Shown here: in pieces, positions 55,067-64,000 of the stretch | Layout of the letters: each line of letters begins with the position of its first letter | Position numbering within the stretch: position 1 is the first letter of the stretch | Assembly: GCA_016839055.1 (NCBI GenBank) | Contig: JAEKNX010000012.1 | Location: forward strand, 62,001 to 126,000 | Direction of reading: 5' to 3' | DNA: 64,000 nt | Source: Spirochaetales bacterium | Lineage (GTDB): Bacteria; Spirochaetota; Spirochaetia; UBA9216 | The notes under the pieces: generated by a model | The model's input: only the letters and a program-made list of their open reading frames with translations | The model's database searches: none | What the model was told of the DNA's origin: nothing | Position numbers and translations under genes: made by a program

Positions 55067-56035
55067 ATGGCTTTTGAATTTGGCAAAAAACAGTCTCTCG
55101 AAACGATGAAGCTGATGCTTACATCACGGCGTTTTGAAGAGAAGGTTAACGAGATGTTCATGCAGGGTCTTATTCACGGGACGACTCATCTCGGTATAGG
55201 ACAGGAAGCATTGCATGCGGGCGTAAGTCCCGCCCTCGATAAAGACGACTGGATTCTCCCGAACCACCGCGGTCACGGTCACTGCATAGCAAAGGGATCG
55301 ACTCCCTATGACATTATGGCTGAGCTTATGGCAATTCGCGACGGTGTCTGCAAGGGCATGGGCGGTTCGATGCATATTATCGACACAAGATATAAAAACA
55401 TGGGAAGTTCAGGAATCGTAGGTTCCGCAATCCCAATGGCTGTCGGCATGGCCCTCCAGATGAAGAGGGAAGGCAGGAAGAACGTTGTTTGTACTATGTT
55501 CGGCGATGCCGCTAGTAATCGCGGTACCTTTCATGAAGCACTTAATATGGCTTCAATATGGAAGGTTCCATCGCTCTTTCTCTGTGAGAACAATCTCTAT
55601 GGAATGTCCGTTCCCGCGAAATACTCAGTATCAGTTGAAGATATTGCTGTACGTGCCACATCATACAATATGGAAAGCAGGGTTATTGACGGTAACGATG
55701 TTGAGCTTGTCTACAGTACCGTAAAGGAAATTACCGACAGTATGCGGATGAATCCCAGGCCGTTTCTGCTTGAGGCGAAAACCTACAGATGGCTCGGACA
55801 TTCAAAGAGTGACAGAAGAGAATACCGTACCAAGGAAGAAGAAGCAGAGTGGAAGGAAAGATGTCCCATTTCAATGTTTAAAGATAAGATGATTGATCGC
55901 GGATTTATAACTGAGAAAGCCTTCGAGAAGATGAAGGCAGATGTTGAGGCTGAGATCGACGCGGCGACAGAGGCGTGCAAGGGCAAGGAAAGAGTAAGCC
56001 TTAATGAAGCGTTCGATTATGTCTACAGCAGTTAG
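55067..56035 (+). CDS. 2-oxoacid dehydrogenase E1 component, alpha subunit (pyruvate, acetoin or branched-chain type)
   Basis: 322 residues. The thiamine-pyrophosphate motif is GDAASNRGTF...CENN (about residues 145-175). Other family patches are ITSRRFEEKV-like start, GIGQEALHAG, LPNHRGHGH and TYRWLGHSKSDRREYRT, the phosphorylation-loop region. AAGGAGG precedes ATG. It forms the a2b2 E1 with the next gene. The shorter length is closest to acetoin or branched-chain forms. The acyl-CoA genes downstream leave branched-chain oxidation (valine-type) and pyruvate/acetoin oxidation open. Confidence 0.93.
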   Translation: MAFEFGKKQSLETMKLMLTSRRFEEKVNEMFMQGLIHGTTHLGIGQEALHAGVSPALDKDDWILPNHRGHGHCIAKGSTPYDIMAELMAIRDGVCKGMGGSMHIIDTRYKNMGSSGIVGSAIPMAVGMALQMKREGRKNVVCTMFGDAASNRGTFHEALNMASIWKVPSLFLCENNLYGMSVPAKYSVSVEDIAVRATSYNMESRVIDGNDVELVYSTVKEITDSMRMNPRPFLLEAKTYRWLGHSKSDRREYRTKEEEAEWKERCPISMFKDKMIDRGFITEKAFEKMKADVEAEIDAATEACKGKERVSLNEAFDYVYSS

Positions 56036-56042
56036 TTTGAAA

Positions 56043-56058
56043 CCCGCATTCATGCGGG
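56043..56058 (+). repeat. Hairpin before E1-beta
   Basis: CCCGCA-TTCA-TGCGGG, followed by AGGAG and ATG 56079. The stem matches the third hairpin of the cassette at 58054-58352. Confidence 0.7.
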
Positions 56059-56078
56059 AAGCTAATCAGGAGATAAAG

Positions 56079-57074
56079 ATGGCAGAAATAACTTTTTTAC
56101 AGGCAATTAATGAAGCAATGAGTGAAGAGATGAGGGCAAACAAGAATGTTGTTCTCATCGGTGAAGATATTGGTATTTACGGCGGGTGCTTTGGTGCCTC
56201 ACGCGGAATGCTCGAGGAGTTCGGAACCGATCAGATGCTTGAGACACCTATTTCGGAAGAAGGTTTCATGGACCTTGCGATGGGTGCTTCAATGATAGGT
56301 ATGCGTCCAATAGTTGAGATAATGTTCGGTGATTTCTCAACCCTCGTCTCCGACGGTCTTATCAACCATGCGGCTAAATATAAGTTCATGACAGGCGGGC
56401 AGGTTGAAGTCCCCCTTGTTTTCAGGGCGCCTTTCGGCTCGGGTACCGGCGCCGCAGCACAGCACTCCCAGAGTCTCGAGACGATGTTTACAAATACTCC
56501 GGGTCTCAAGATTGTATATCCTGCTACCCCATATGACGCAAAGGGGCTTTTGAAGTCGGCCATCCGGGATAACGGACCGGTTCTTTTTTTCGAGAACAAA
56601 CTGCTCTACAGGGCCAAGGGCGAGGTTCCCGAGGGTGATTACACAATCGAAATCGGGAAGGCTGATATCAAGCGCGAGGGAACGGATGTGAGTATCATAA
56701 CTTACTCAAGAATGCTTCCGGTCTGTCTTGAGGCAGCCGAGCAGCTTGCCGCAGAGGGCATTAGCGCTGAGGTCGTCGACCTGCGTTCACTAAAGCCCCT
56801 CGATACCGAAACAATAATCAAGTCTGTCATGAAGACCTCCAGAGCGCTTGTTGTACACGAAGCGCCGAAATTCGGCGGATTCGCGGGCGAGGTAGTCGCG
56901 GCAATAATGGAGAGTGAAGCCTTCTATCATCTTGACGCTCCTGTTGCAAGACTCGGCGGGAAAGAGATGCCGGTTCCCTACAATCCGGATATCGAGAAGC
57001 AGATTGTTCCTGTTATTGATGATGTTAAGGAAACTGTCCGGAAACTGGTTAATAATGGCGGTGTGAAGGTATGA
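56079..57074 (+). CDS. 2-oxoacid dehydrogenase E1 component, beta subunit
   Basis: 331 residues. ATG 56079 is chosen because AGGAG lies seven bases before it and a hairpin fills the gap; the frame from 56004 would overlap the alpha gene. Family patches: MAEITFLQAINEAM, VVLIGEDIGIYGG, DTPISEEGFM-like, and SGTGAAAQHSQSLE. The active-site glutamate is in GEDIG. It completes the E1 heterotetramer. The next gene overlaps its stop by four bases. Confidence 0.95.
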   Translation: MAEITFLQAINEAMSEEMRANKNVVLIGEDIGIYGGCFGASRGMLEEFGTDQMLETPISEEGFMDLAMGASMIGMRPIVEIMFGDFSTLVSDGLINHAAKYKFMTGGQVEVPLVFRAPFGSGTGAAAQHSQSLETMFTNTPGLKIVYPATPYDAKGLLKSAIRDNGPVLFFENKLLYRAKGEVPEGDYTIEIGKADIKREGTDVSIITYSRMLPVCLEAAEQLAAEGISAEVVDLRSLKPLDTETIIKSVMKTSRALVVHEAPKFGGFAGEVVAAIMESEAFYHLDAPVARLGGKEMPVPYNPDIEKQIVPVIDDVKETVRKLVNNGGVKV

Positions 57075-58051
57075 ATATTGTCCCGGCTGTTCCTGCTGCA
57101 AGAAGAATCGCGGGAGAGCGGAACATTGATCTCTCGATGATTCGCGGTACAGGAGATTATGGGGCAGTACTCACCCGTGATGTAATCAGCTTCAAGGAAA
57201 CAGGCCTCAAGATGACCGCGGTAGCGGCATCCATGGCAGATTACTATGGAATAGATACCGGCTCGCTCGGCAGTGAGGGCGGAAAAATCAAGAAAGCAGA
57301 TGTGCTTGCTCAACTCCAATCCGTGAATGGTGCTTCGGAAGCCTCATCGGTTGCGGAATGGGATGAGCTCCCGATGAGCGGCATGAGAAACGTGATAGCC
57401 GGGAACATGCTTAAAAGTATGAGTATTCAGCCTCAGTACACTATGTGTGCCGAGCTTGATACAACTGAAGTGTTCAAGTTTCTCACCGAGGCAAAGGCTG
57501 CTTTTATAAAATACGCCGACTCGAAGCTTACCTTCACCGACATAATGGTGAAATTATGCGCGATAGCGCTAATGCACCATCCGAAAATCAATTCATCACT
57601 CGTGGACGGCAAGATTAGACGCTACAATACTGCGCATATAGGTATTGCCGTGGCGCTAGATGACGGACTGATTGTTCCTGTTGTTAAGAATGCTGAGAAG
57701 CTTTCATTATCTGCAATAAGCAGGGTGGGCCAGGATCTGATATCCAGGGCGCGTGCGAACAAGTTGACTCAGAATGAATATACCGGTTCCACCTTTAGTA
57801 TCAGCAATCTCGGGAATTATCCTGTTGATTTTTCAACACCTATTATAAACTCGCCAGAAGGCGGAATACTCGGAATATCGAAAACTTCGAAAAAACCAGT
57901 TGTTATGAATGACGAGATTGTAATTAGAACGATGACAGGCTTCAGTCTGACGCTTGATCACAGAATTATCGACGGAATCGAAGGCGCGAAATTCCTCAAG
58001 ACTCTTGAAGAACTGCTCGCCAACCCGATGTGCGTTTTAGTGGATTTATAG
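57071..58051 (+). CDS. 2-oxoacid dehydrogenase E2 acyltransferase lacking a lipoyl domain
   Basis: 326 residues. The usual N-terminal lipoyl domain is absent: the protein opens directly with a peripheral-subunit-binding domain (VPAVPAARRIAGERNIDLSM), then a second, weaker copy (TAVAASMADYYGIDTGSLGS). The catalytic domain follows from about residue 95, with DELPMSGMRNVIAGNMLKSM, ISNLGNYPVDFSTPII, and the active-site DHRIIDG (H297). Without its own lipoyl domain it must accept acyl groups from a lipoyl arm elsewhere. The E3 encoded next carries one. It overlaps the E1-beta gene by four bases. Confidence 0.93.
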   Translation: MNIVPAVPAARRIAGERNIDLSMIRGTGDYGAVLTRDVISFKETGLKMTAVAASMADYYGIDTGSLGSEGGKIKKADVLAQLQSVNGASEASSVAEWDELPMSGMRNVIAGNMLKSMSIQPQYTMCAELDTTEVFKFLTEAKAAFIKYADSKLTFTDIMVKLCAIALMHHPKINSSLVDGKIRRYNTAHIGIAVALDDGLIVPVVKNAEKLSLSAISRVGQDLISRARANKLTQNEYTGSTFSISNLGNYPVDFSTPIINSPEGGILGISKTSKKPVVMNDEIVIRTMTGFSLTLDHRIIDGIEGAKFLKTLEELLANPMCVLVDL

Positions 58052-58053
58052 GT

Positions 58054-58352
58054 CAGGAGAATTATTCAAATTGAACCTCGTGTTCAATTTGAATTTGTAG
58101 TTTGAAAAGTTTCAAACTGCGTACCGAATACCCGCATCCGTGCGGGTCGTTACAGGAGAATTATTCAAATTGAACCTCCGTGTTCAATTTGAATTTGTAG
58201 TTTGAAAAGTTTCAAACTGCGTACCGAATACCCGCATCCGTGCGGGTCGTTACAGGAGAATTATTCAAATTGAACCTCCGTGTTCAATTTGAATTTGTAG
58301 TTTGAAAAGTTTCAAACTGCGTACCGAATACCCGCATCCGTGCGGGTCGTTA
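58054..58352 (+). repeat. Three tandem copies of a 99-100 base three-hairpin cassette
   Basis: Copies begin at 58054, 58153 and 58253; the first is one base shorter (a C missing in its first loop). Otherwise they are identical. Each holds CAGGAGAATT, a 12-bp stem (58064-58075 with 58083-58094 in copy 1), an 8-bp stem (58100-58107 with 58110-58117) and a 7-bp stem with loop TCCG (58130-58136 with 58141-58147). The E3 start follows after a partial fourth start with its AGGAG. No T runs and no open frame. It fills the whole 313-base gap between E2 and E3. It is not a CRISPR array, as no unique spacers exist. Confidence 0.97.
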
Positions 58353-58364
58353 CAGGAGAATTAA

Positions 58365-60077
58365 ATGGGAAAATTTATGACCATGCCCAAACTTGATATG
58401 TCAATGGAAGAGGGTGTTATCGTTGACTGGATGGTGAAAGTGGGCGATGAAATAAAGCGGGGAGACATAGTAGTAGAGATTGAAACCGGAAAGCTGAGCC
58501 TTGAGGTTGATAACCCTACGGCTGACGGTACAGTTCTTGAAATCTATGCTGCTCCCGGCGATACTGTTATGGTAAATGAGCCGATCATGTATATCGGAAA
58601 ACCTGGAGAGACTCCTCCCTCGGTTGGGAAAAGCAATCCTGAAGTCGTTGCTGAGGAGACATCAAAACAACAGGGGGCAAATTCGATTGAAGAAGCGGTA
58701 GCTTCTTCCGAGGCTGCCAATGCAGCCTCCTATGATCTCGCCGTTGTCGGCGGAGGCCCGGGCGGATACGTATGCGCCATCAGGGCGGCTCAGCTTGGCG
58801 CTAGAGTTGTGATTTTTGAGAAAGACTCCTTCGGAGGGGTCTGTCTTAACCACGGATGCATTCCGACCAAGGCTCTGGTGCGTAATGCCGAAGCATGGCA
58901 GGATGTACTGAACTCTGAAGCTATGGGCATCAGTCTGTCTAATCCCTCTTTTGACTGGAAGAAGATTATAGGCCGGAAAGACAGGGTTGTTCACACCCTC
59001 GTCAGCGGTGTAGAAGGCCTTCTAAAGAAGAACAAGGTGGAAATAGTAAAATCTGAAGCTCAGGTAGGTGCAGGCGGAAAGATTACATCAGGCGGAAAGA
59101 CCTACTCTGCCGCTAAGGTTGTGCTGGCAACCGGAACTAAACCCCTCGAGATTCCTTTCGAAAACGATGGAAGCATGAAGGTTTACAATTCAGCCGAGCT
59201 TCTTTCGATAGACAAGCTTCCGAAATCAATTGTGATAGTCGGCGGCGGGGTAATCGGTGTTGAAATGGCATCAATCTACTCAGCATTCGGCGTTCAGGTT
59301 ACAATAGTTGAGATGCTCGAGCGTATCATAGCGATGGCGGATGCCGAGGTTGCCGAGCTTCTTGCAGCCGAACTAAGGAAGAGCGGCGTTGAAATTAAAA
59401 CATCCTCAGGCTTCAAGGCTGTTAAGGATGGCAGGGTTCTCCTTTCAAATGGCGATGCAATCGCGGCGGAAGCCCTTCTAATCGCTGTCGGCCGAAAACC
59501 TGTCACAGGCGGTCTCACGGCTGACGCCGGTGTTTCGCTTAATGAGAAAGGCTGGATAGAAACTGATGATAACTTAAAAACATCTGCCGATAATATCTAC
59601 GCCATTGGAGACATTACCGGAAGAATCCAGCTTGCACACGTTGCAAGCGCTCAGGGGCTTCAAGTTGCCGAGAGTCTCTTCGGCGGCAAGAGTAAAAGGG
59701 GCAACTATAATGCCGTTCCGTCCTGTATTTTTACAAAGCCGGAAATTGCATGGGCGGGAATGACTGAAGTTGAGGCTAAGGCCAAAGGGCTGCAGGTCAA
59801 GGTCGGTAAGTTTCCTTTCAAGGCAATAGGCAAGGCTCTTGCTTACGGCGAGACCGAAGGTTTTGTTAAGGTTATAGTAGATGAGCGATGGGACGAGATT
59901 ATAGGTGTGCATATTATCGGACCCCATGCCTCGGATCTGATTGCCGAGGCAGGGGCTGCAATACATCTTGAGTCTACTGCACAAGAGCTCGCGCGCGCTG
60001 TTCACGCACATCCGACATTTGCTGAGGCAGTGATGGAAGCATGTGAGGCTGTCCACGGCAAAGCAATACATTTTTAG
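58365..60077 (+). CDS. Dihydrolipoamide dehydrogenase (E3) with N-terminal lipoyl domain
   Basis: 570 residues, about 100 more than normal E3. Residues 1-80 are a lipoyl domain (MPKLDMSMEEGVIVDWMVKV, lipoyl lysine K43 in ETGKLSLEVD). After a linker comes the E3: FAD motif VVGGGPGGYVCAIRA, redox cysteines C160 and C165 in GGVCLNHGCIPTK, NAD motif VIVGGGVIGVEMAS, and C-terminal HAHPTFAEAV with the catalytic histidine-glutamate pair. It reoxidises the dihydrolipoyl group. Lipoyl-E3 fusions are known in some bacteria, but here it appears to supply the only lipoyl domain of the complex. Confidence 0.96.
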   Translation: MGKFMTMPKLDMSMEEGVIVDWMVKVGDEIKRGDIVVEIETGKLSLEVDNPTADGTVLEIYAAPGDTVMVNEPIMYIGKPGETPPSVGKSNPEVVAEETSKQQGANSIEEAVASSEAANAASYDLAVVGGGPGGYVCAIRAAQLGARVVIFEKDSFGGVCLNHGCIPTKALVRNAEAWQDVLNSEAMGISLSNPSFDWKKIIGRKDRVVHTLVSGVEGLLKKNKVEIVKSEAQVGAGGKITSGGKTYSAAKVVLATGTKPLEIPFENDGSMKVYNSAELLSIDKLPKSIVIVGGGVIGVEMASIYSAFGVQVTIVEMLERIIAMADAEVAELLAAELRKSGVEIKTSSGFKAVKDGRVLLSNGDAIAAEALLIAVGRKPVTGGLTADAGVSLNEKGWIETDDNLKTSADNIYAIGDITGRIQLAHVASAQGLQVAESLFGGKSKRGNYNAVPSCIFTKPEIAWAGMTEVEAKAKGLQVKVGKFPFKAIGKALAYGETEGFVKVIVDERWDEIIGVHIIGPHASDLIAEAGAAIHLESTAQELARAVHAHPTFAEAVMEACEAVHGKAIHF

Positions 60078-60089
60078 TAAGGGGGAGAT

Positions 60090-60863
60090 ATGGAATTGAG
60101 CAACGTGAAATACGAGGTTAAGGGCACAACAGCCTATGTGACTGTAAACAGACCGAAGGCGCTTAACGCTCTTAATATCGATGTGATAGCAGAACTGAAA
60201 AGAGCCTTTGAGGCGATTGAATCCGATGATGCCGTAACAGGAGTCATTCTATCCGGGGAGGGCGAGAAAGCCTTCGTCGCCGGCGCGGATATCGCGCAGA
60301 TGAAAGAGTACTCAGCACTCGAGGCAAGAGCAATGGCTACAGCCGCTCATTCGGTTATGAATTCCATCGAGGAATGTACAAAACCGGTAATAGCGGCTGT
60401 GAACGGCTTTGCCCTGGGCGGCGGATGTGAGCTTGCCATGGCATGCGACATCAGGATTGCCTCTGAGACTGCAAGAATGGGCCAGCCCGAGGTCAACCTC
60501 GGAATTATTCCCGGCTTCGGCGGAACACAGCGGCTGCCGCGTCTTGTCGGCAAGGGAATGGCGAAATACCTGATAATGACAGCCGAGATGATCGACGCGG
60601 CCGAGGCGTACCGGATAGGCCTAGTGCAGAAGGTTACAGCTCCCGGAGAGCTGATAGCGGAATGCGAAAAGGTTCTTGCAACAATCAATAAGAAGGGCCC
60701 TTTCGCAATTAAGCTTGCGAAAAAGGCTATCAATAATGGAATGCAGGCCGACCAGAGTTCGGCATTAAAAAATGAGATTGAACTTTTTGCCCTGACCTTT
60801 GCGACGGACGAACAGGAAGAAGGAATGGCTGCTTTTCTCGAGAAGAGAGCTGCTGAATTTTAA
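60090..60863 (+). CDS. Enoyl-CoA hydratase/crotonase
   Basis: 257 residues, normal size. Oxyanion-hole segments are FVAGADIAQMKEY and NGFALGGGCELAMACDIRIA, and the catalytic glutamates lie in GQPEVNLGIIPGFGGTQRL (two glutamate positions typical of hydratase). It adds water across a 2-enoyl-CoA. AAGGGGGAG precedes ATG. It lies 12 bases after E3 without a hairpin array. Confidence 0.93.
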   Translation: MELSNVKYEVKGTTAYVTVNRPKALNALNIDVIAELKRAFEAIESDDAVTGVILSGEGEKAFVAGADIAQMKEYSALEARAMATAAHSVMNSIEECTKPVIAAVNGFALGGGCELAMACDIRIASETARMGQPEVNLGIIPGFGGTQRLPRLVGKGMAKYLIMTAEMIDAAEAYRIGLVQKVTAPGELIAECEKVLATINKKGPFAIKLAKKAINNGMQADQSSALKNEIELFALTFATDEQEEGMAAFLEKRAAEF

Positions 60864-60987
60864 ATTACATCTAAAGTACTTCGTACTTTCTGTAATTTTA
60901 AAATTTTGAAGTTTGGAAGCTATGCTTTCAAAACTTCATTCACACTATTCGCCAGACCTTCGGTGCTACGTTGTAGTCCGTGGCGAA
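60862..60987 (+). repeat. Three-hairpin array before the acyl-CoA dehydrogenase gene
   Basis: Hairpin 1: 8-bp outer stem (60862-60869/60891-60898) with an inner 7-bp stem. Hairpin 2: 14 pairs with one bulge (60907-60920/60924-60938). Hairpin 3: 7-bp outer stem (60948-60954/60981-60987) enclosing two smaller hairpins. GGGAG and ATG 61010 follow. Stem sequences are unrelated to the other arrays, but the layout is the same. Confidence 0.8.
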
Positions 60988-61009
60988 AACTGAATTAAAG
61001 GGAGATAGG

Positions 61010-62167
61010 ATGATTGATTTTACATTTACAGAAGACCAGGACATGCTTAAGACAGCTTTCAGGGAATTTATTGAGGCTGAGATAGCCCCGAATGCGGCAA
61101 AATGGGATGAACAAGACCTCTGTCCAGTAGAACTGTGGCCTAGGATGGGGGAAATTGGAATGCTCGGAATATTTATTCCGGAAGAATACGGCGGGGCAGG
61201 ACTTGGGCATATAGAAAGAATCATGGTTATCGAAGAGATTGCCAGATACAGTGCAGGTCTTGCCATCGCTGTTTTTACCCACCATCTCGCCATGGGAGCC
61301 ATTCTTGACGGCGCAAGCGAAGAACAGAAAAAGAAATATCTTCCTGAGCTCTGCGCGGGAACAAAAATATGCGGTCTGGCGGTTACCGAGCCCGGCGGCG
61401 GATCTGACTTTACCGGACAGAAGACAACCGGAGTAAAAGACGGCGATAACTGGGTAATTAACGGCCGTAAATGTTTTATTACAAACGGCGGACCCGCTGA
61501 TATTACTGTTGTAACAGCGGTAACAGGCCAGGATGACCGAGGCAGAAACCAGCTCTCCTGCTTTCTCTTTGAGAAGGGCGATGAGGGTTTCGGGCCCGGC
61601 AGGAAAGAGCACAAGATGGGGCTTCGTGGAAGCTGGACCGGCGATGTTATTATGGATGAAGTAAAGGTAAGTGCTGACCGGCTCATCGGAGCCGAGGGAG
61701 CGGGCGCAGGTCTGGGAATGAAGCAGATTGGTGAAATAGGACGTGCGTCAATGTCAGCCATCGGCCTTGGAATAATGAGGGGAAGCCTTGAGGAGTCAAT
61801 CAAGTTTGCAAATGAAAGAATTCTTTACGGCAAACCCATCAGTAAATTACAGGCTATTCAGTTTCATATCGCGGAAATTAGGACATGGTATGAAGCCGCC
61901 AGATTACTTACCTACAGAGCTGCGTCACTTAAGGATAAGGGTGTAAGTGCCATTACTGAGTTTGCGCTTGCAAAGTATTTTTCAGTGGATATGGCCGTCA
62001 AGGCATCACAGAACGCAATTGAACTAATGGGCGGTTACGGGGTAATGACTGAATATCCTGTTGAAAGATTTCATCGGGATGCTCTTGCCAGTATTTCTTC
62101 CGGCGGAACAACCGAGATTCAGAAACTGATAATTGCAGGCGATACGCTCAGGTCTTTTAAGGCATAG
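61010..62167 (+). CDS. Acyl-CoA dehydrogenase
   Basis: 385 residues from ATG 61010 (GGGAG six bases upstream). Family patches: FTEDQDMLKTAFREFIE, GGAGLGHIERIMVIEEIA, AVTEPGGGSDFTGQKTT, ITNGGPADI for FAD binding, and ELMGGYGVMTEYPVERFHRD with the catalytic-region arginine and FAD contacts. The catalytic glutamate is not pinned down by eye. It transfers electrons from acyl-CoA to EtfAB. The short-chain butyryl or isobutyryl type is likely given its neighbours. Confidence 0.95.
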   Translation: MIDFTFTEDQDMLKTAFREFIEAEIAPNAAKWDEQDLCPVELWPRMGEIGMLGIFIPEEYGGAGLGHIERIMVIEEIARYSAGLAIAVFTHHLAMGAILDGASEEQKKKYLPELCAGTKICGLAVTEPGGGSDFTGQKTTGVKDGDNWVINGRKCFITNGGPADITVVTAVTGQDDRGRNQLSCFLFEKGDEGFGPGRKEHKMGLRGSWTGDVIMDEVKVSADRLIGAEGAGAGLGMKQIGEIGRASMSAIGLGIMRGSLEESIKFANERILYGKPISKLQAIQFHIAEIRTWYEAARLLTYRAASLKDKGVSAITEFALAKYFSVDMAVKASQNAIELMGGYGVMTEYPVERFHRDALASISSGGTTEIQKLIIAGDTLRSFKA

Positions 62168-62175
62168 CCGAGAGG

Positions 62176-62268
62176 AATGATAAAAATACCTCCATGCATT
62201 TTTATCATTTTGGAGTTTGTAAGCAAAGCTTCCAAACTCCACCTCTGGAACCTGCCTTCCATAGCAGG
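62176..62268 (+). repeat. Three-hairpin array before etfB
   Basis: Hairpin 1: perfect 12-bp stem (62176-62187/62198-62209), loop ACCTCCATGC. Hairpin 2: 9-bp stem plus four more pairs after one mismatch (62211-62224/62228-62241). Hairpin 3: 5-bp stem (62251-62255/62264-62268). AGGAG at about 62279 and ATG 62289 follow. It has the same design as the other arrays. Confidence 0.8.
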
Positions 62269-62288
62269 AATTTCTTATAGGAGTTTAC

Positions 62289-63134
62289 ATGAATATTGGC
62301 GTATTGGTTAAACCTGTTCCGGATCCGGAACAGTATAATACTATAACTATTGATCCGCAGACCAAGAGGCTGAACAGGGAAGGGGTTCCGTCAATCGTGA
62401 ACCCCGCCGATAAATGCGCAATTGAAGAGGCGCTGCGCTTGAAAGAGAAGTTCGGCGGAAAGGTTGTAGTTTTCGGCATGGCTCCGCCTGACGGACGTGA
62501 GAAGCTGCTTGAGTGCCTTGCGATGGGCGCCGATGAAGCAGTCCTTGTAAGCGACAGGGCCTTTGGCGGGGCTGATACCCTTGCCACTTCATATACCCTG
62601 GTTAAGGCGCTTGAAAAGAAGGCTGCCGAAGGCGGCTCTTTCGATCTGATTCTCGCTGGTAATGAGAGTGCTGACGGGGCAACAGGCCATGTTCCCGCGC
62701 AGGTGGGTGAACAGATAGGTTATAATCACCTCAGCGGCATTGTTAAGATAGAATCAGGCAGCGAATCAGAGCCTTCCACCCTAACCGTGTTTCAGAAGTA
62801 TGAGAACGGCAAGAATGAATTTACCATTAAGCTGCCCGCCGTAATCGGTGTTTCAAGAGACATCAATAAACCTCGCTACACGTCCGCTATGGGTGTTATC
62901 AAGGCGAAGAAGAAGCCTTTTGACATCTATGACACGATAAATCTTGAGCACGACAAAGAGCGTATTGGACTTGCTGGTTCACCGACCAAGGCCGGAGCCA
63001 TCTTTTCTCCTGATACAAGGCGGAAGAGCGAAGAGCTTTCCGGCAGTCCTGAAGAAATTGCCGAAGAGCTTGTTAAGCGGATAAAGGCAACAGGCGCTGT
63101 TATTGTTTCAGGAGGCGGATGTCATGAGAGATAA
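62289..63134 (+). CDS. etfB: Electron transfer flavoprotein beta subunit
   Basis: 281 residues. N-terminus MNIGVLVKPVPDPEQYNTI, then NPADKCAIEEALRLKEK, and the signature region DLILAGNESADGATGHVPAQV. A C-terminal stretch of about 35 residues (from HDKERIGLAGSP) leads into the a-subunit contact. It passes electrons from acyl-CoA dehydrogenase. Its stop overlaps etfA by 11 bases. Confidence 0.96.
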   Translation: MNIGVLVKPVPDPEQYNTITIDPQTKRLNREGVPSIVNPADKCAIEEALRLKEKFGGKVVVFGMAPPDGREKLLECLAMGADEAVLVSDRAFGGADTLATSYTLVKALEKKAAEGGSFDLILAGNESADGATGHVPAQVGEQIGYNHLSGIVKIESGSESEPSTLTVFQKYENGKNEFTIKLPAVIGVSRDINKPRYTSAMGVIKAKKKPFDIYDTINLEHDKERIGLAGSPTKAGAIFSPDTRRKSEELSGSPEEIAEELVKRIKATGAVIVSGGGCHER

Positions 63135-64000
63135 AAAGATCTTTATTTACGCTGAAGACGACTGCGGAAAAGTGAATAGCGCTTATTTTGAGCTGCTTTC
63201 GAAGGCCTGTGAGATAAATAAGACTATCGAGGCTCAGGACGGCGCGCCGGCCGAGCTTTGCGCTGTAGCTGTCGGAGCTGCCGGAGAAGAGGCAATGAAG
63301 AGTCTTGTAGACTCCGGTGCTGATGTTGTTTACAACATCAAGGGCAGTAAACTTGATGTTTACAACCCTTCAGTTTTTTCAGAAGCTTTAACCCAGCTAT
63401 GCAAGGCTGAGGTTCCCTATATCTTTCTGTTCGGCTCAACGGCGCAGGGTACTGAAATTGCTCCAACTCTCGGAGTAAAGCTTCATACCGGCGTCGCGGC
63501 TCACTGTGTCGATCTGCGGATTGATGGCGAAGGTGCATTCGTTCAGGACGTTCCGGCATTCGGTGGAAAGGTTATCGGTGAAATTATAACGCCCGATACT
63601 CTTCCTCAGATTGCGACCGTCAAACCAGGTCTGTTTCAGGTCACAAAACTACCATCGAAGGCGGCCAAGATCGTAAGCTTTCAGCCGATTCTTGATGAGG
63701 TTGAAAGCGGCGGAATTGTCCTTAAGGAAGTTCATATTAAAAAAAGAAACAGCCTGCCGGTTGATAAGGCCGAGGTCATAATCTGCGGCGGGTTCGGAAT
63801 GGGCTGTGATGAGAACTGGGAACTTCTTGAGAAGGTCGCAAATTATTTTGAGAAATCGGCCGTAGGTTGTACAAGACCGGCTCTCGATGAGGACTGGGCT
63901 GTTGACGAGGGAACGATGATCGGCACAAGCGGCAAGACTGTCAGGCCTAAACTCTACATCGGCGCGGGTATCTCGGGGGCAATGCACCACGTCTGTGGTA
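63124..64000 (+). CDS. etfA: Electron transfer flavoprotein alpha subunit (3' end beyond window)
   Basis: About 292 codons, open to the window edge. It starts MRDKKIFIYAEDDCGKVNSA and continues with YIFLFGSTAQGTEIAPTLGVKLHTGVAAHC, the family pattern, and the FAD-binding region IICGGFGMGCDENWELLEKV, AVGCTRPALDEDW, GTSGKTVRPKLYIGAGISGAM near the edge. Only the last about 30 residues are missing. Start ATG 63124 overlaps etfB. With EtfB it carries electrons to the membrane or ferredoxin. Confidence 0.95.
   Translation, partial: MRDKKIFIYAEDDCGKVNSAYFELLSKACEINKTIEAQDGAPAELCAVAVGAAGEEAMKSLVDSGADVVYNIKGSKLDVYNPSVFSEALTQLCKAEVPYIFLFGSTAQGTEIAPTLGVKLHTGVAAHCVDLRIDGEGAFVQDVPAFGGKVIGEIITPDTLPQIATVKPGLFQVTKLPSKAAKIVSFQPILDEVESGGIVLKEVHIKKRNSLPVDKAEVIICGGFGMGCDENWELLEKVANYFEKSAVGCTRPALDEDWAVDEGTMIGTSGKTVRPKLYIGAGISGAMHHVCG

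Follow-up and report, generated by a model that had tools for sequence, protein, structure and literature searches.

BOX elements of the pneumococcus are modular, dispersed hairpin repeats that occupy intergenic positions, contain a tandemly variable part and are thought to be parasitic (PMC3049150), and REP/BIME elements, which occur with RAYT transposases, are short dispersed palindromes located between co-directional genes, downstream of coding regions (PMC3733652). For RNA hairpins, CsrA/RsmE recognizes an ANGGAN hexaloop closed by a C-G pair (PMC3791407, PMC7652899), and the SELEX consensus for CsrA is RUACARGGAUGU (PMC7652899).

The locus described here is a tandem array of three-hairpin units between the E2 and E3 genes of a 2-oxoacid dehydrogenase operon, within a 64,000-nucleotide stretch of DNA (the window). 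The array likely arose by tandem amplification of a single inserted copy of a modular repeat, dispersed through the genome, made of three palindromes and related to the Rfam family TD-2, rather than as a leader specific to E3. On the best reading, the repeat behaves most like BOX or BIME repeats, with an unusual location linked to Shine-Dalgarno (SD) sequences. With BOX it shares modularity, dispersal, intergenic hairpins and tandem variation, whereas its sequence is unrelated, no terminal inverted repeats are visible in an alignment of 27 copies from the window's own genus, placement is tied to an SD in one orientation, and the whole element rather than a middle module is repeated. With REP/BIME it shares short dispersed palindromes between co-directional genes, but three different hairpins form a single unit, and a Y1 transposase (TnpA_REP, PF01797) is absent from the window's genome (G000) and from the genomes searched in a family termed T. 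denticola-like here, a label inferred from the family name and scores. Membership of the REP/RAYT system was rejected because G000 lacks this transposase. Y1 transposase matches in G003 and G167 (L137, L138) contain internal stop codons, so these copies may be decayed.

The three-unit array between E2 and E3

The window positions 55067–63999 hold one operon comprising 2-oxoacid dehydrogenase E1a-E1b-E2-E3, enoyl-CoA hydratase (ech), acyl-CoA dehydrogenase (acd) and ETF genes, in an order that is the same in G003 and G006. The E2 gene (57071–58051, plus strand), with domains 2-oxoacid_dh and E3_binding, lies upstream of the array, and the E3 gene (58365–60077, plus strand), with domains Biotin_lipoyl and Pyr_redox_2 of a dihydrolipoyl dehydrogenase, lies downstream; this domain content bears out the gene names given in an earlier note on this DNA. 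The E2 protein is without a lipoyl domain and starts with its E3-binding domain, and a lipoyl domain occupies the N-terminus of the E3 protein.

Analysis with TRF reveals one 100-bp array at 58054–58363 (3.1 copies, 99% matches, score 613), the sole long-period array in the window, in agreement with the three near-identical 99–100-base copies that the earlier note had placed in this gap. Each unit begins with an SD copy, CAGGAGAATT, followed by three hairpins (H1, H2 and H3), all on the plus strand. Specifically, unit 1 (58054–58152, 99 nt) carries H1 at 58064–58094, H2 at 58097–58120 and H3 at 58130–58147; unit 2 (58153–58252, 100 nt) carries them at 58163–58194, 58197–58220 and 58230–58247; and unit 3 (58253–58352, 100 nt), which equals unit 2 exactly, carries them at 58263–58294, 58297–58320 and 58330–58347. 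The sole difference among the three is the one already described, a single base, a C, that is absent from the H1 loop of unit 1. The H1 stem comprises 13 bp with a hexaloop CTCCGT, H2 comprises 8 bp plus one G-U and one G-C pair, and H3 comprises 6 bp, or 7 if a loop A-T pairs, with the loop ATCCGT; the previously claimed 12, 8 and 7 bp come close to these values. A fourth CAGGAGAATTA (58353–58363, plus strand), matching the left end of the array at 58054–58064, serves both as the right-hand direct repeat and as the real SD of E3 (ATG at 58365), so that the cassette does end at the true ribosome binding site, as had been stated. A single unit folds at −38.6 kcal/mol (z −5.6), and the whole array reaches a z of −11.3.

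Relation to TD-2 and genomic placement

A scan against Rfam returns one credible family, TD-2 (RF03162, clan CL00124), which matches units 2 and 3 on the minus strand at 58159–58247 and 58259–58347 (45.5 bits each, E 1e-4 in 6 kb); microRNA-family matches, with E values of about 0.8–0.9, were dismissed as chance. Both matches span the full 98-position model (positions 1–98) with all three helices, and they fall 3 bits below the curated gathering cut-off of 48.7 bits, for which reason the units are termed TD-2-related rather than members by the curated rule. The order and spacing of the three hairpins agree between the units and TD-2, hairpins 1 and 3 have a GGA-containing loop in both, and both occur as many dispersed copies per genome; they differ in this shortfall of score and in the annotated RNA strand, which is antisense to the genes here. 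The antisense position suggests that the Rfam strand or sRNA label of TD-2 may need review. No functional description of TD-2 was found in the open-access papers searched; TD-1 and TD-2 reportedly originate from a 2017 paper.

The Rfam model detects six copies above the cut-off in G000, and about 20 at E<0.05. One of the six is a sister copy in the acd–etfB gap of the same operon (62172–62268, minus strand, 51.6 bits), whose Rfam strand is antisense to both neighbouring genes. The earlier note had proposed searching other spirochaete genomes for the cassette; that search, run across the class, finds TD-2 in 28 of the 297 genomes, which cluster in the window's genus and the T. denticola-like family with its many strong copies, with zero matches in the control genomes. 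As an RNAalifold model (R1) caught too few pairs, a second covariance model (R2) was built from the 27 own-genus copies, aligned on the gene-sense strand with the structure derived from the alignment. With R2, G000 yields no fewer than 43 copies at E<1e-6 and 71 at E≤1; G004 has 85 matches, three further congeners have 27–34 each, G006 has two and G005 has none. The R2 score of the window unit is partly circular, the unit being among the training copies, whereas its Rfam score is independent. R2 also detects a degenerate family member in the ech–acd gap (60846–60989, plus strand, 41.8 bits, E 5e-8). Furthermore, a lone H3-like hairpin, ACCCGCATTCATGCGGG, lies in the E1a–E1b gap (56042–56058, plus strand), and comparable H3 hairpins, which also stand alone at orthologous sites in L011 and L246, suggest that the repeat is a modular element.

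Of 103 copies, with neighbours defined by simple ORF calls, 87 have a sense strand that agrees with both neighbouring genes, 14 agree with only one, 2 lack a neighbour, and not one opposes both. The copies lie between the preceding stop codon and the SD of the next gene, most of them beginning within about 20 nt of that stop codon, and even behind a divergent upstream gene most elements adjoin the downstream SD. An SD-like sequence is present at the left end in 68 of the 103 and within 30 nt of the right end in 89. This orientation bias is not produced by R2, since Rfam's own TD-2 model, built from other sequences, gives identical orientation in the window's genus; the T. denticola-like genomes show mixed orientation. 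In addition, 32% of genes downstream of an element have TATAGGAG ahead of the start codon, compared with 4% of ordinary genes, and from this enrichment the TTTAT next to the SD probably belongs to the right end of the element. The order in the genus is fixed as stop codon, AGGAG, H1, H2, H3, TTTAT-AGGAG and start codon, and because the downstream gene retains a ribosome binding site, such insertions would be tolerated inside operons.

Collectively, a repeat found at some 40 or more sites in one genome, nearly always beside an SD and never directed against both neighbours, points to a small mobile element rather than an E3 leader. On these data, TD-2 in the window's genus becomes a repeat that is polymorphic, adjoins ribosome binding sites and runs antisense to its annotated RNA strand, with a fit of orientation and of the stop-to-SD interval across about 100 sites.

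Stem pairing, loops and the transcribed strand

On covariation, the stem pairing is real beyond doubt: 28 of 29 stem pairs change on both sides, with a value of 0.60 against 0.05–0.13 for slid controls. Counted in a strand-neutral manner, approximately 96% of stem pairs are Watson-Crick, with G-U at 1.3% and A-C at 1.9%, and the RNA-strand test of G-U against A-C yields no preference in either of two runs (26:29 and 40:58). Tolerance of G-U pairs is usual for RNA stems; measured against this general background, the pair frequencies show that neither strand displays RNA-like G-U tolerance. In orthologous H1 stems, 33 double Watson-Crick changes are found versus 6 single ones, a pattern more readily accounted for by template-switch correction or gene conversion than by stepwise compensation, and for some orthologous pairs independent insertion at the same SD is a possible source. 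Pairing of the left SD with the H2–H3 linker, suggested by one fold, was rejected for want of covariation (p 0.26).

These observations bear on the reading of the cassette as an mRNA structure conserved between cistrons, with a role in transcript protection or processing or in setting the ratio of adjacent gene products, and with the triplication tuning E3, which we regard as unlikely. Such a structure would account for an orientation that follows transcription, for stable folds with covarying stems and for hairpins that persist at orthologous sites; it sits poorly with the near absence of G-U pairs, with H1 changes unlike those of stepwise RNA compensation, with an SD–linker contact that does not covary, and with the occurrence of the element in many unrelated operons. 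The earlier suggestion that the purpose of the cassette is to adjust E3 amounts relative to E2 finds no support, as dozens of unrelated gaps are filled and the same gap is empty in two relatives, G003 and G006. In the mRNA, the array would separate E2 from E3 by a spacer of nine hairpins, and whatever influence this had on stability or E3 level would be incidental; the mRNA protection, processing or copy-number switch formerly envisaged may be side effects, and a regulatory effect on E3 is possible but unsupported here. Insertion followed by tandem amplification explains the triplication without a dedicated regulatory role, although the strong stem covariation and the intact sites shared by G000 and G004 could indicate selection for function, which counts against this preferred reading, as do the lack of a Y1 transposase in G000 as a mobilizing enzyme and the small number of copies with a long flanking repeat.

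The loops of H1 and H3 are conserved, the stems are not. Their sense strand reads C[NTCCRT]G and the opposite strand C[AYGGAN]G, and on the Rfam strand C[ANGGAN]G is present in the H1 loop of about 64 of 100 copies and in the H3 loop of about 63 of 100. Each unit has two such loop motifs with ANGGA on the Rfam strand, and CsrA-sequestering sRNAs carry several on a single strand. The variable loop positions are those tolerated by CsrA, a csrA gene is present, and the T. denticola-like copies carry GUACAAGGAUGUAC, which contains the 12-base SELEX consensus. In this genus, however, these CsrA-type loops occur on a strand that is antisense to the operons and not expected to be transcribed: either the Rfam strand is transcribed, or the loops may serve the movement of the element, with the CsrA match coincidental or ancestral.

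A tentative reading, to which we give little weight, goes further: the repeat would represent a novel type of interspersed element that, bounded by AGGAG on either side, recombines from SD to SD, enters operons in a single orientation without silencing the next gene and multiplies together with an SD. Since its outer loops are CsrA sites when read on the other strand, such an element would act as a dispersed sponge for CsrA or be a parasite descended from a sponge of this kind.

More doubtful still is the proposal that TD-2 is itself a CsrA-binding RNA whose Rfam-strand transcript acts as a sponge, more copies raising the dose. The C-G-closed ANGGAN hexaloops in two of three hairpins, the SELEX consensus in T. 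denticola-like copies and the presence of csrA accord with it, and the hexaloops on one strand resemble those of CsrB/RsmZ-type sRNAs. Here, however, the sites lie in dispersed repeats, two per unit, on a strand that is antisense to essentially all flanking genes in the genus and that lacks any G-U preference, and the 13-bp stems exceed those of most SELEX ligands (PMC7652899). An antisense promoter in the right flank was rejected: TATAGGAG is enriched there, yet full promoter matches beside the SD are on a par with those of ordinary genes (7.5 vs 7.3 of 12).

Insertion and tandem amplification

The operon is conserved in G003 (71–91% protein identity) and in G006, where the E2–E3 gap is without the element and measures about 19 nt and 15 nt, respectively. 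The acd–etfB site is clean and empty in G003, G004 and G006, the ech–acd gap is empty in G003, and other orthologous gaps hold the element in one congener but not in the next, so that dispersed copies vary in presence and absence at orthologous sites in the manner of BOX-like elements or MITEs. Some sites are common to G000 and G004, with hairpins intact despite approximately 25% DNA divergence. When G006 is taken as the outgroup, the simplest account would be a gain in the lineage of G000; clean excision is a possible alternative, gains and clean losses not being separable with certainty. Paralogous 2-oxoacid dehydrogenase operons (L173, L174, L175 and L011, in G003, G004, G001 and G000) also hold TD-2 copies, which occupy different gaps in different species.

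The tandem unit consists of exactly one element and one SD copy. The view of each unit as a duplicated leader is therefore half right: the repeating unit does include the SD, but its remainder is the dispersed element and not a leader specific to E3. Within a copy, the left SD context resembles the right one more closely than it does a shuffled partner (p<0.001 with the array excluded; p=0.02 when the two best are dropped as well), and direct repeats of 15 bp (L247), 13 bp (L042) and 11 bp (window) flank individual copies. As a test for target-site duplication, however, these SD-region repeats are long in a few copies only, and both sides are SDs in any case. Slippage or unequal exchange between short repeats that flank strong palindromes is established bacterial behaviour. 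Given the composition of the unit, slippage or recombination between the flanking 11-bp CAGGAGAATTA repeats would either remove the element precisely or duplicate it together with one SD, and two such duplications would yield the triplicate; we infer slippage as the route on this basis.

The left part of the unit has no other occurrence in the genome, even allowing two mismatches, and dispersed copies average 78% identity to each other. Both observations support a tandem amplification that is recent relative to dispersal, consistent with the recent duplication proposed from the near-identity of the copies at this one locus. An assembly artefact in the three-unit copy number is improbable: unit 3 repeats unit 2 exactly and the assembly is a draft of 43 contigs, but unit 1 has its private one-base deletion, unique sequence borders the array at either end within a 159-kb contig, and other genomes also hold TD-2-like tandem arrays. 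In the class, such arrays are found at L110 and L079, with periods and copy numbers of 143 bp × 2.6 (94% matches) and 93 bp × 3.7 (84%).
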